57,687 bases of DNA from Pseudomonadota bacterium (GCA_005804965.1 SYOC01000266.1:1-57687); one strand, 5' to 3'; positions 20,665-26,077 are shown, counted from the stretch's first letter. The notes: generated from the sequence alone by a model not told the origin. Made by a program: numbers and translations.

Positions 20665-20874
20665 AGGGGAGGCATCCTAGCAAGCAATTTCGGCAGGCGA
20701 CAAGGCAGGCGGCACTGTCGCGCAGCAAATATTACGGCGGATTGGCTGAACCGCGCACGCCCTCCTTTTCGGATACAGAAGACAATGCTATGAGAGCACG
20801 CAAACATTGAAGGTACCCGAGGCCGCTTGCGTCCGTTGAACGGCGAAGCGAGCTTCGCGGAATGGAGGGAATTG

Positions 20875-21156
20875 ATGAAAAAATGGAAGGCAATCGCCGG
20901 AGTCCTGATGGTGGCAAGCCTCTTTTATGTGGCTGGCTGTAAAAAAGAGAAAGAACCAGCAAAGCCACCGCCGCCGGACCCGCTGACCGCGTGCCGCAAC
21001 GAGTGCAAACATGCGTCGGAAAAGATGAATAAGGACTGTATCGACGAACTCACTAAGCAGCAGGCGTTTGATCGTTTGCAAGAGTGCACCACGAAGGCCG
21101 ACGGCTACTCGAAGACGTGCCGCACGGAGTGCGATAAGAAGCATCCGAAGGGCTAA
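20875..21156 (+). CDS. Small Cys-rich lipoprotein
   Basis: A 93-residue protein with a lipoprotein signal (MKKWKAIAGVLMVASLFYVAGC; lipobox VAGC), a charged Lys/Glu/Pro linker and a domain with five further cysteines spaced CRNEC...C...C...CRTEC. The paired CxxxC motifs suggest a small disulfide-bonded helical hairpin. I know no family name. GGAGGG lies 5 bases before the ATG at 20875; the track start at 20827 lacks a ribosome site. It is divergent from uvrC. Confidence 0.75.
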   Translation: MKKWKAIAGVLMVASLFYVAGCKKEKEPAKPPPPDPLTACRNECKHASEKMNKDCIDELTKQQAFDRLQECTTKADGYSKTCRTECDKKHPKG

Positions 21157-23203: not shown

Positions 23204-23908
23204 ATGGTGGTTCATGCGGTGGTCGTTGCCGCCGGAAAAGGCGAACGTATGGGGGCGGCGCTGCCCAAGCCCTTCCTTCCTCTGGCTGGAGTTCCCCTCT
23301 TTGTCCACACCCTTCGGAGCCTCACGCGCTCGACACTCTTACAAAAGATCGTCCTCGTCATCGCGGCAGAATACGAACCATTGTGCCGTCAACTGCTCGA
23401 ACAACATGGTCCTTTGCGCCTGCCCATGCTCCTCGTACATGGCGGACAAGAGCGGCAAGACTCGGTCCGACTCGGTTTAGCCGCGCTTGACCCAGATTGC
23501 GACATTGTGGTCATTCATGATGCCGCCCGCCCGTTTATTGAAGCTGAGATTATTGATGCCAGTATCAAGAGCGCAGCGGAACATGGTGGCGCGTTAGTCG
23601 CGGTTCCGGCGCGTGACACCATCAAACGGGTCAATCCACAGGGCGGTGTCGTTGAAACAGTCCCCCGGCACGATCTCTGGCTGGCGCAAACTCCGCAGAC
23701 GTTTCGCGTTGCCCTCATCAGAGAGGCACATGCACGCGCCCACACCCAAGGTATTACCGTCACCGATGATGTGGCCCTGCTGGAGTGGGCCGGCGGCACT
23801 GTCGCCATCGTCCCGGGCGATGGACGTAACTTCAAACTCACGACTCCGGAAGATGTGGCATTAGCGGAAGCGTTGCTAAAGATGGGGACGGCTCGTCTGC
23901 ATCCCTAG
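23204..23908 (+). CDS. ispD: 2-C-methyl-D-erythritol 4-phosphate cytidylyltransferase
   Basis: A 234-residue enzyme of the MEP isoprenoid pathway, making CDP-methylerythritol from CTP. The nucleotide-binding loop is VVAAGKGERMGAALPKPFLPLAG. HDAARPFI, PARDTIKRV and TQTPQTFR-type segments (read here as LAQTPQTFRVALI) follow, and TVTDDVALLEWAG fits the family. AAGGAAG stands 9 bases before the ATG at 23204. ispF, often next or fused, is absent here. Its last 71 bases overlap the 3' end of the convergent cyclase gene. Confidence 0.95.
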   Translation: MVVHAVVVAAGKGERMGAALPKPFLPLAGVPLFVHTLRSLTRSTLLQKIVLVIAAEYEPLCRQLLEQHGPLRLPMLLVHGGQERQDSVRLGLAALDPDCDIVVIHDAARPFIEAEIIDASIKSAAEHGGALVAVPARDTIKRVNPQGGVVETVPRHDLWLAQTPQTFRVALIREAHARAHTQGITVTDDVALLEWAGGTVAIVPGDGRNFKLTTPEDVALAEALLKMGTARLHP

Positions 23909-24623
23909 CTGAGGCGCCAGCGTCGCCGTGCGGAGGAATGTGATACGCAGTCACACACTCTTCCTCAAAGCCCCGCACGACCATACAGCTCCCCCAGAGC
24001 TGGAAGTGGTGAGCAATCTCCGGGGCTTCATGCTGGAGCCTCACCACCACGTGTTGTGGGGCGATGATGCCGCCCGGCGCGACTTCTTTGAGGAGACGCG
24101 CCGCCAAATGGACACTCGGGCCAAGCAGTGTCACGGCGCGGCGCTGCACCGAGCCAATCACACCGATGACGACCTCACCTACGTTGAGACTCACGCGCAC
24201 CTTCACTGTGCGCCCTCCGGTCTGTTGTTCAGCAAGCAGCGCATCACGAATAGCCAAAGCAGCGCGGGCCGCCTGTGCCAGCGACCCAAAGTAGAGCAAG
24301 GCACCGTCGCCTTCATAATCTTTCACATCGCCACAGTGGGCCAAGGCGATATCGGTCACCAGGGCGCTAAAGCGTTGCACCACGGCAAGTGCGTGAGCCG
24401 GCGAGTGCTGGAACAACAGACTCGTCGAATCCGCAATATCCACAAACACCAGGGTCAGTTCTCTGCTCGTTGGCAACGTGTGCTGTTCCAAGTAGTCTTC
24501 CGCTAGGCCCGGCAGAAACGTATGCACCTGAGGTTGCCCGCTCGCAACCTCGTGACTGCAGGAAGGATGCACGGCTTGCCGGCAAGTCCAGGCGTCCACT
24601 TCCTTACACGGTTGAGTGTTCAT
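23838..24623 (-). CDS. Class III adenylate/guanylate cyclase domain protein
   Basis: A 261-residue protein. The N-terminal 30 residues are Cys-containing (CKEVDAWTC and SCSHE). The catalytic domain follows: metal-binding Asp in LTLVFVDIADST, second Asp in VKDYEGDGALLYF, and the late GPSVHLAARLLKEVAPGGI segment. It would make cAMP or cGMP in the cytoplasm. The ATG at 24623 has AAGG upstream and overlaps the end of the sigma-factor gene by 20 bases, so the two are translationally linked. The pairing suggests a transcription switch coupled to nucleotide signalling. No membrane segment is seen. Confidence 0.85.
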   Translation of the reverse strand: MNTQPCKEVDAWTCRQAVHPSCSHEVASGQPQVHTFLPGLAEDYLEQHTLPTSRELTLVFVDIADSTSLLFQHSPAHALAVVQRFSALVTDIALAHCGDVKDYEGDGALLYFGSLAQAARAALAIRDALLAEQQTGGRTVKVRVSLNVGEVVIGVIGSVQRRAVTLLGPSVHLAARLLKEVAPGGIIAPQHVVVRLQHEAPEIAHHFQLWGSCMVVRGFEEECVTAYHIPPHGDAGASARDADEPSPSLATLPLMPHLPES

Positions 24624-25302
24624 GGTGACCTTCTTTCGGCGGCATACAGGAACACGCGCTTGGGTTGACCTGCCCTTGGCTCGCTGTAGCCGTGGAGGTT
24701 GCTGACTGGCACCCCGCACTCCCTGCTTCTTGTTGGTAGTCCACCACGTTTCCCCGTTTATCTAGCGCGACTTGGCAACAGCGCAGCAGGAGATCTTTCA
24801 GCTTCTCTCGACCACGCTGCACCCGTGATTTCGCCCCCGAAAGCGAGACGGCTAAACGTGTGCTTAGCTCTCGTTGCGGCACGCCTTCGATTTCCACGAG
24901 TTGGATCGCTTCTCGATAATGTTCGGGCAAGCGTTCGATCAACGGGGTCAAACACAGGGCCAGTTCAGCATTGCGTGTCTCCTCGTCCTCCCCATTGGGA
25001 GGCGAGACGGCAGGATGTTCTTCCCCAGCGAGAGCACTGTTCAGGCTGACATCGGTGGGGATTTCATGCCGCCGTGGGGCCGCGCGGTAATAGTCGATGA
25101 TGGCATTGCGCGTCAGTTGAAAGATCCACGGGGTGAGTCGCTCGACTTCTCTTACCGTGGACAGATGCTGGTGAATCCGTAGAAAGACCTCTTGCAGCAG
25201 GTCCTCCACATCCGCCGGGTTACTCACCCGACGGGCAATGAAGGTGCGTAGACGGTCGCGCAGCTCGCGCCACAGCAATTCGGTAGCGTGTTCCACAGTC
25301 AT
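24604..25302 (-). CDS. ECF sigma factor, SigZ-like, with Cys-containing tail
   Basis: A 232-residue sigma factor. Region 2 is LRTFIARRVSNPADVEDLLQEVFLRIHQHL then WIFQLTRNAIIDYYR, and region 4 is LPEHYREAIQLVEIEGVPQRELSTRLAVSLSGAKSRVQRGREKLKDLLLRCC. The tail has the SigZ-type LDKRGNVVDYQ segment followed by further cysteines (GC, CSC). The tail cysteines could bind metal or sense thiol state; no classical anti-sigma factor is encoded next to it. The ATG at 25302 is chosen because the longer ORF runs into the DUF2703 gene. It follows that gene by 16 bases. Confidence 0.9.
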   Translation of the reverse strand: MTVEHATELLWRELRDRLRTFIARRVSNPADVEDLLQEVFLRIHQHLSTVREVERLTPWIFQLTRNAIIDYYRAAPRRHEIPTDVSLNSALAGEEHPAVSPPNGEDEETRNAELALCLTPLIERLPEHYREAIQLVEIEGVPQRELSTRLAVSLSGAKSRVQRGREKLKDLLLRCCQVALDKRGNVVDYQQEAGSAGCQSATSTATASQGQVNPSACSCMPPKEGHHEHSTV

Positions 25303-25318
25303 TCTCCCATGCGTTTGC

Positions 25319-25960
25319 TTATTTGCACCCGCAACTGGCAGCACCGCGAGGGCTGGTAGAGAGCGACGGTCCACAGCACGACGCTTTTTCCTCTGGTGCG
25401 CAGCAGGACGCCTGTTCACCTGGTGGGCAGCACGAGGAAACAGGAGCTGCCTTCTCAGCCTTTGCGGCAAAGAAACGTGTCAGATTCTCCGTGACCTCGC
25501 CCACAGGCGGCGGTGCGTCAAGCGGTGCTGCGCCACTGTACACCTCACGCAACAGCGCATCCACAATCATTCCCACCGGCGCTTCGGTGTATTCTTGCCC
25601 TTGATAGCGCCACACACGACAGTTGGTCCCTTCCTCGCACCCGCACAGGTCCGTGCAAGAATCACAGTGACTTTCCAACGTCTCTAGGGCGATGTCGTGG
25701 CCGTTGATGCGAATGGTCGGCGAAGTCACAAAGCTGTGCTGCTGGGCTTGTTCTGCCGACTCGATCAGAATCGTACGCACGTGTACGTCATAGCCAGTGA
25801 CTTGCAACACCTGTTGGACGGTAGCGAGGGCGTGTTCGAGGTTAGCCTGACTGCCGACACAACGAGTGCAGGTCTGAAGATCGAGGGCCAGTAACTCGAT
25901 GGTGATAGGGTGGGCGGCCGCCGCCGGTTCTCTTGTCGATGACATGGTTGATGTACTCAT
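25319..25960 (-). CDS. DUF2703 protein with repeated Cys-Cys tail
   Basis: A 213-residue protein. The central part matches the DUF2703 pattern, thioredoxin-like with ELLALDLQTCTRCVGSQANL, then SFVTSPTIRINGHDI, and a Cys cluster HCDSCTDLCGCEEGTNCRVW. The C-terminal tail repeats SCCPPGEQ, SCCAPEEK, SCCGPS and ends SCGCK, an array well suited to soft-metal binding. Function is not established for the family. It is the first gene of a three-gene unit with the SigZ-like factor and the cyclase, which suggests that metal or thiol status feeds into the sigma factor. Confidence 0.85.
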   Translation of the reverse strand: MSTSTMSSTREPAAAAHPITIELLALDLQTCTRCVGSQANLEHALATVQQVLQVTGYDVHVRTILIESAEQAQQHSFVTSPTIRINGHDIALETLESHCDSCTDLCGCEEGTNCRVWRYQGQEYTEAPVGMIVDALLREVYSGAAPLDAPPPVGEVTENLTRFFAAKAEKAAPVSSCCPPGEQASCCAPEEKASCCGPSLSTSPRGAASCGCK

Positions 25961-26077
25961 GAACTCTCTCCTTATGATCCAGGGATTTTTCTGGCAACCC
26001 TTTGTGGGCTTCCATTGCTAGAGACGGAGGAGAGAAGAAAAAGACGCAACGCTCTTGTACTTCCAGTAAGAACCCGA

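Follow-up and report, generated by a model that had tools for sequence, protein, structure and literature searches.

The stretch of DNA analyzed here (the window) comprises 57,687 nucleotides of a Pseudomonadota bacterium (GCA_005804965.1 SYOC01000266.1:1-57687) and contains an operon of three genes, which encode a Cys-rich DUF2703 protein, a sigma factor of the SigZ family, and a class III nucleotidyl cyclase domain (Table 1). On balance, we believe this operon to be an autoregulated one-component SigZ switch for detoxifying arsenic or similar thiol-seeking agents, in which SigZ probably serves as a soluble arsenic-response switch. The genes, the conservation of their Cys tails and of the operon, a promoter shared among SigZ-type loci, and the linkage of sigZ to arsenic genes were all read from the sequences themselves. 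Most of the weight for the arsenic reading is carried by the shared promoter, which was absent from a first-pass annotation of the window. SigZ has so far been an orphan extracytoplasmic function (ECF) sigma factor, and our search of the open literature found no SigZ regulon, promoter, or signal; a promoter, a small local regulon, and a candidate class of ligand now make its role testable.

A promoter shared by SigZ-type loci

Among 148 genomes of the window's class, nine encoded a SigZ scoring over the TIGR02959 cut-off; all nine, the window's genome included, belong to the window's family. Only one of the others, from a different genus, contained the whole three-gene operon (locus L039, identical to L051; record JABFSC010000747.1). 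The window has a single match to the SigZ-type promoter, TTGCGTCTTTTTCTTCTCTCCTCCGTCT, located upstream of DUF2703 at a distance of approximately 61 nt from the start codon. Comparison with L039 showed that the 117-nt gap upstream of DUF2703 had diverged save for the block TTGCGTCTTTTTCT.C.CTCCTCCGTCTCTAG. The promoter elements are also common to the regions upstream of arsI-sigZ in the window's sister genus, although the genes there differ, and the shared consensus is TGCRTCYTTT-N~11-CGTCTA.

The first pattern searched, TTGCGTC-N-CCGTCT, gave too few sites above a reversed-pattern control to count alone; therefore, placement and conservation of the sites were used. In the sister genus a second copy of the promoter lies approximately 50 nt upstream of a gene for a CC-tailed GST-like protein; the gene for the arsenite pump ACR3 (375 bits against a cut-off of 282.8) comes next, and a gene for ArsC follows in some of the genomes. 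With one mismatch allowed, this gst-acr3 site was present in all seven sister-genus genomes. The generalized pattern GC[GA]TC[CT]TTT-N11-14-CGT[CT] was found at 30 sites in 55 sigZ loci, at one in 39 loci of other ECF sigma factors, and at none in 20 random loci. The sites precede sigZ itself, arsM (in two phyla), arsI, arsD, permease genes, and the gene for a CC-repeat protein. Positions left free by the pattern were also kept, with T before GC in 34 of 37 sites and T after CGTC in 35 of 37, and the spacing from GCRTC to CGTC was 15–17.

Genome-wide, 16 of the 24 sites in 20 SigZ-positive Bacteroidota genomes were located within 6 kb of sigZ, in about 0.3% of the DNA; 20 SigZ-negative genomes had eight sites in total. 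Because most sites are at the sigZ locus, we conclude that the regulon is small and mostly local. Elsewhere in the 20 SigZ-positive genomes, sites occurred at the background level.

Three further observations concern this promoter. In genome G212 (L203 5103-7182, minus strand), one intact SigZ-type promoter has been retained before a fragment of a broken sigZ and another before what is left of the cyclase gene; broken genes behind intact promoters indicate that the operon is decaying in that genome. In the sister genus (L047-L054, L198-L202), an inverted repeat, GTCTGT-ATAA-ACAGAC, is present downstream of the −10 element and is absent from the window; it is possibly a second operator. On a Priestia plasmid (L061 5890-5914, minus strand), a promoter match points away from sigZ and into an aldo/keto reductase gene, which offers a lead for a Bacillus SigZ target.

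Arsenic genes around sigZ

SigZ-type genes of several phyla sit among arsI, arsM, acr3, arsC, arsA, arsD, and arsH. An arsenic gene was present within 6 kb in 13 of 40 Bacteroidota sigZ loci. In the same genomes, one of 40 loci of other ECF sigma genes had such a neighbor (Fisher p = 3e-4) and none of 20 random loci did (p = 2e-3). Counting ArsR or permease genes too raised the number of sigZ loci to 16 of 40. Clustering of the neighbors without any reference set placed ArsI (8 loci), ACR3 (6), and ArsC (6) at the top, and none of these occurred near the control ECF genes. The identities of the neighbors were verified with curated models and with the vicinal-Cys motif of ArsI. The ArsI proteins at sigZ loci retain this CC motif, and most have extra CC tails; the ArsM identities were over the curated cut-off. 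An ArsI gene (150.5 bits, cut-off 116) stands just before sigZ in 7/7 genomes of the sister genus. In genome G323, sigZ lies between a permease gene and arsA with acr3 and arsC nearby, and in G075 it is followed by arsM.

Annotated plasmids have the same kind of neighborhood, with the order arsR-arsH-sigma-arsD in Klebsiella and Enterobacter, arsR-arsH-sigma-arsD-arsA in Salmonella, and arsI-arsC-arsC-acr3-sigma-permease-thioredoxin-arsA in Ideonella. The sigma factors of these plasmid ars operons have a C..CC tail; for those of L055, L064, and L065 the best model was SigZ, yet they scored below its cut-off. A SigZ-like sigma factor, annotated as a generic sigma-70 protein, is carried on 1,365 plasmid records (few of the loci were inspected), mostly from Klebsiella, Salmonella, Citrobacter, Enterobacter, and E. 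coli. One plasmid paper lists a sigma gene beside arsH, arsD, and arsA and draws no regulatory link; the open literature that we searched contained nothing linking SigZ to arsenic, or ECF sigma factors to ars operons.

The frequent location of these sigma genes on plasmids with resistance islands would also fit a different explanation, in which the Cys tail is a structural zinc site and the arsenic linkage reflects horizontal gene clustering and not regulation. We give this explanation very little credence: the shared promoter before sigZ and before arsenic genes in several phyla, together with the control loci, argues for regulation.

Two side observations were made at such loci. In enterobacterial plasmid ars operons (L064 4929-5503, L111 5001-5546, L112 5001-5546), the interval from the SigZ-like gene to arsD contains a candidate SigZ promoter (GCATCTTTTTCCC...CGTT). 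In genome G000, acr3 is apparently split over the ends of contigs C20 and C426 (L213, L209) and adjoins an MFS gene; the visible sequence there contained no SigZ-type promoter.

The cysteine tail of SigZ

The window sigZ is its genome's sole SigZ-type match over the TIGR02959 cut-off. An alignment showed that C175, C176, D181, G184, and C198 of its tail are invariant in seven relatives, and all of the tail Cys (CC, C, and CxC) are kept in L039. The element CC-x4/5-D-x2-G-x4-Y is common to aligned SigZ proteins of several phyla, usually with C-x2-C after region 4. At least three tail Cys were present in 35 of 40 Bacteroidota SigZ proteins, and a tail CC pair in 31 of 40; neither feature was found in any of 39 other ECF sigma factors from the same genomes. 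The tail is thus a feature of the SigZ family found in this analysis, outside the curated TIGR02959 definition. The window protein resembles the family, including Bacillus subtilis SigZ, in its full-length match and in the CC-x5-D-x2-G element, which lies within the model; its distal tail Cys, in contrast, lie beyond the model. A Cys just before region 4.1 was scored in 31 of 42 SigZ proteins versus 6 of 23 controls by a crude segment finder that misplaced some sequences. An AlphaFold2 model based on a shallow alignment (mean predicted local distance difference test score, pLDDT, 64.8) predicted a beta hairpin at residues 176-191, directly after the last sigma4 helix, with the remaining tail disordered.

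Two known groups of sigma factors have comparable tails. CorE/CorE2 (formerly ECF44, now ECF238) likewise have no anti-sigma factor, a Cys-rich C-terminal extension after sigma4, and metal-resistance targets; however, the window SigZ lacks the CXC motif of the CorE linker, its tail Cys are spaced differently, and the genomic theme of SigZ is arsenic as opposed to the Cu, Cd, and Zn of CorE. Membership in CorE was rejected because the linker CXC is absent, the linker having one Cys only (CLTPLIERLP). By analogy, the window SigZ may nevertheless work like CorE. OrbS (ECF243) also has a C-terminal Cys cluster after region 4, which there is an on-board sensor, but in its case Fe(II) is inhibitory and the targets are siderophore genes, unrelated to those of SigZ.

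The first-pass annotation had described a sigma factor with no membrane anti-sigma. This was borne out: sequence and neighborhood showed no anti-sigma gene adjoining sigZ in the window.

Conservation of the DUF2703-sigZ module

The window DUF2703 protein scored 99 bits against PF10865 (gathering score 23.6) and below the cut-off against NF049942. It has 15 Cys, in a CxxC motif at 31-34, a second cluster at 99-114, and a CC-repeat tail, and all 15 are invariant in L039. The predicted structure was of low confidence (pLDDT 52); its Foldseek matches were mostly thioredoxins, none significant, and a sequence search of the PDB gave no match. A thioredoxin-like fold has been proposed for DUF2703, and ArsD is likewise thioredoxin-like (PMC3091736). 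At annotated loci elsewhere DUF2703 is an ars-operon gene. A tblastn search of plasmids gave two matches, both inside ars operons and neither with sigZ, and a DUF2703 gene in an ars operon was As(V)-induced (PMC6514093).

The first-pass annotation had suggested a link between DUF2703 and SigZ, and co-occurrence in other genomes was found when it was looked for: the DUF2703-sigZ module occupies six loci in two phyla, namely the window, L039/L051, and four loci distributed over three actinobacterial genomes. Between the window and L039, identity is 77% for DUF2703, 68% for the sigma factor, and 51% for the cyclase. As a held-out test, 397 Actinomycetota genomes were searched after the promoter rule had been set, and seven sigZ loci were obtained. 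Three of these are DUF2703-sigZ operons with the same CC tail and without the cyclase; their DUF2703 proteins are 42-46% identical to that of the window, and a TGCRTC...CGTC promoter is directly upstream of each operon. Two others are permease-sigZ loci with the site before the permease gene, divergent from arsM, arsR, and arsC. A reverse survey starting from DUF2703 in the same genomes gave four sigZ-linked copies (one of them new), all four with tail and promoter. Within 1.5 kb to either side of DUF2703 at the other 25 actinobacterial loci, no sigZ match and no promoter were found, and their readable DUF2703 tails had no CC repeats; several of these loci adjoin acr3, arsD, or ArsR genes.

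Unusual Cys had been pointed out in all three proteins of the operon. Those of the DUF2703 and sigma tails proved to be conserved, in L039, the Bacteroidota SigZ proteins, and the actinobacterial copies; those at the cyclase N terminus were weakly conserved. Because it is kept across phyla, the DUF2703 Cys tail is more than chance.

Among the DUF2703 proteins inspected, those with the CC tail were all encoded next to sigZ (L039 and the four actinobacterial copies, as well as the window), and those without a sigZ link did not have it. This distribution, together with the gene order DUF2703-sigZ, the short gap, and the joint conservation of both tails, would suit a model in which the DUF2703 tail is the sensor, the protein being a soluble anti-sigma factor or co-activator bound to SigZ until a metalloid on its Cys frees the sigma factor. 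We consider such a model quite unlikely. DUF2703 is missing from most SigZ-type loci, where arsI, arsM, or a permease gene is present instead, so SigZ must work without it; moreover, CC tails also occur on the ArsI and GST proteins of SigZ loci, which fits effectors. DUF2703 is most likely an effector, with an anti-sigma role possible.

Two additional loci are relevant here. In a Saprospiraceae metagenome-assembled genome, a SigZ-type promoter match was found at the 5' end of a gene (L041 6931-7305, minus strand) for a 124-aa CC-repeat protein with 16 Cys; this gene lies upstream of sigZ, on the strand opposite to it. The actinobacterial genome G917 has two separate DUF2703-sigZ operons on different contigs (L254, L255).

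The signal and the proposed mechanism

Several observations weigh against SigZ as an arsenic switch. At about 60% of the sigZ loci from Bacteroidota no arsenic gene was recognized within 6 kb, some promoter sites precede MATE transporter or secreted-protein genes, and the window's own genome has no acr3 copy with the promoter. The promoter pattern was refined after some Bacteroidota hits had been seen, and Actinomycetota alone were tested after the rule was set; of the seven actinobacterial loci, one met the strict T-tract rule, and the others fit TGC[GA]TC-N15-17-CGTC. Bacillus-type SigZ (Priestia) retains the CC pair alone. That SigZ reads the shared promoter is itself inferred from their co-occurrence.

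Because of the arsenic-free sigZ loci and the sites before MATE and secreted-protein genes, the signal may be broader than arsenic. SigZ could then sense thiol or electrophile stress in general, or a different soft metal (Cd, Cu, Zn, or Hg), with the arsenic genes as one part of its regulon. The permeases adjoining sigZ, which match Cu/Zn and SaoE efflux models below the cut-off, and the Priestia site before the aldo/keto reductase gene point the same way. The commonest neighbors, however, are specific for arsenic (arsM, acr3, arsC, arsA, arsD, arsH, and ArsI with its vicinal Cys), and we regard this broader role as unlikely, although the strongest claimant among the alternatives to be weighed here. 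The soft-metal or thiol theme of the first-pass annotation was supported and can be narrowed to a link with arsenic; the cyclic-nucleotide output that it had joined to this theme was unsupported.

Under the arsenic-switch reading, the most likely signal would be trivalent arsenic, an organoarsenical, or a different agent with the same thiol targets, and it would be sensed by the sigma factor's own C-terminal Cys tail, without an anti-sigma factor, as copper is by CorE and iron by OrbS. When the signal is present, SigZ would direct RNA polymerase to the shared consensus. In the window this would lead to transcription of DUF2703, of sigZ itself, and of the cyclase gene as a passenger; in relatives the targets would be arsI, arsM, arsD-arsA, gst-acr3-arsC, or a gene for an ArsP/SaoE-like permease. 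DUF2703, with its proposed thioredoxin fold, would most likely use its CxxC motif and CC-repeat tail to bind or reduce the metalloid. The sensory role of the sigma-factor tail, arsenic as its ligand, and this job of DUF2703 are inferences.

A wider proposal, which we advance tentatively and hold a little short of evenly balanced, is that the SigZ family consists of widespread one-component sigma factors, activated by arsenic, whose C-terminal Cys tail, possibly with the linker Cys as a further ligand, is a direct sensor of As(III) or methylarsenite. Under this proposal, the family has a promoter class of its own in several phyla, and a related branch, with C..CC tails, is located in the ars operons of many enterobacterial resistance plasmids. 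ArsR is a repressor that acts at its own local operator, whereas SigZ would be an activator acting on a promoter class of its own. If true, this would place an activator-type sigma-factor route beside ArsR repression in bacterial arsenic regulation. ArsR-controlled ars operons with the ArsD metallochaperone are similar to the SigZ loci in having the same detoxification genes; ArsD, moreover, has the thioredoxin-like fold that has been proposed for DUF2703 (PMC3091736).

The cyclase gene

The cyclase is an accessory gene and not part of the core module, because it is absent from other modules. Its family assignment was supported by solved class III cyclases found in the PDB. The roles of the active-site residues of class III cyclases are well established. 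Comparison with the solved enzymes showed that the window protein retains the metal-binding Asp62 and Asp106 as well as Thr165 and the catalytic Arg176; however, the canonical active site is incomplete, with Asp102 in place of the purine-specifying Lys and His172 in place of the catalytic Asn. Cyclase activity is uncertain on account of these two replacements. The window protein also lacks a C-terminal domain that the L039 protein carries. Three Cys are present in its first 22 residues, of which two are kept in L039, the sole relative.

The first-pass annotation had treated the cyclase as a second output, which would convert a metal signal into a cyclic nucleotide. For such a three-part circuit speak the overlap of the gene with sigZ, its retention in L039, the conserved Asp62, Asp106, and Arg176, and the G212 promoter site before the cyclase remnant. 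Against it are the absence of the gene from the actinobacterial modules, its truncation in the window relative to L039, the two altered active-site residues, an Ala at the Thr165 position in L039, and the weak conservation of the N-terminal Cys. We judged a circuit of this kind very improbable, and the cyclase was rejected as a core part given its single other occurrence and altered active site.

Organization of the operon

The three genes, all on the minus strand and at the positions that the first-pass annotation gave, were confirmed as real. The start of sigZ is most plausibly the ATG at 25302, which leaves a gap of 16 nt after the DUF2703 stop codon. At its 3' end the cyclase gene runs 71 nt into the convergent ispD gene, and it shares 20 nt with sigZ. 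Of the likely ribosome-binding site of DUF2703, AAGGAGAGAG, the part ATAAGGAGA is kept in L039. The operon's own promoter and a likely terminator of pilT, the gene upstream, suggest independent transcription of the operon; a scan of the operon region for sigma-70 promoters gave a single match, on the wrong strand.

Table 1 Features of the sigZ operon and its promoter in the window
Feature	Position	Strand	Description
SigZ-type promoter	26022..26049	-	TTGCGTCTTTTTCTTCTCTCCTCCGTCT; −35 TGCGTC + T-tract, −10 CGTCT
Likely ribosome-binding site of DUF2703 gene	25965..25974	-	AAGGAGAGAG; read from sequence
DUF2703 gene	25319..25960	-	213 aa; PF10865 E 2.4e-28
CC-repeat tail of DUF2703	25322..25432	-	SCC..EQASCC..EKASCC..CGCK, residues 177-213
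sigZ, SigZ-family ECF sigma factor	24604..25302	-	232 aa; TIGR02959 194.5 bits, cut-off 168.65
Sigma-factor Cys tail	24607..24780	-	C175 C176 ... D181 G184 ... C198 ... CxC
Class III nucleotidyl cyclase domain gene	23838..24623	-	261 aa; PF00211 E 7.8e-11

Elsewhere in the window, at 20827-21156 on the plus strand, a small predicted lipoprotein without a significant Pfam match (109 aa from a TTG start) contains several regularly spaced Cys.

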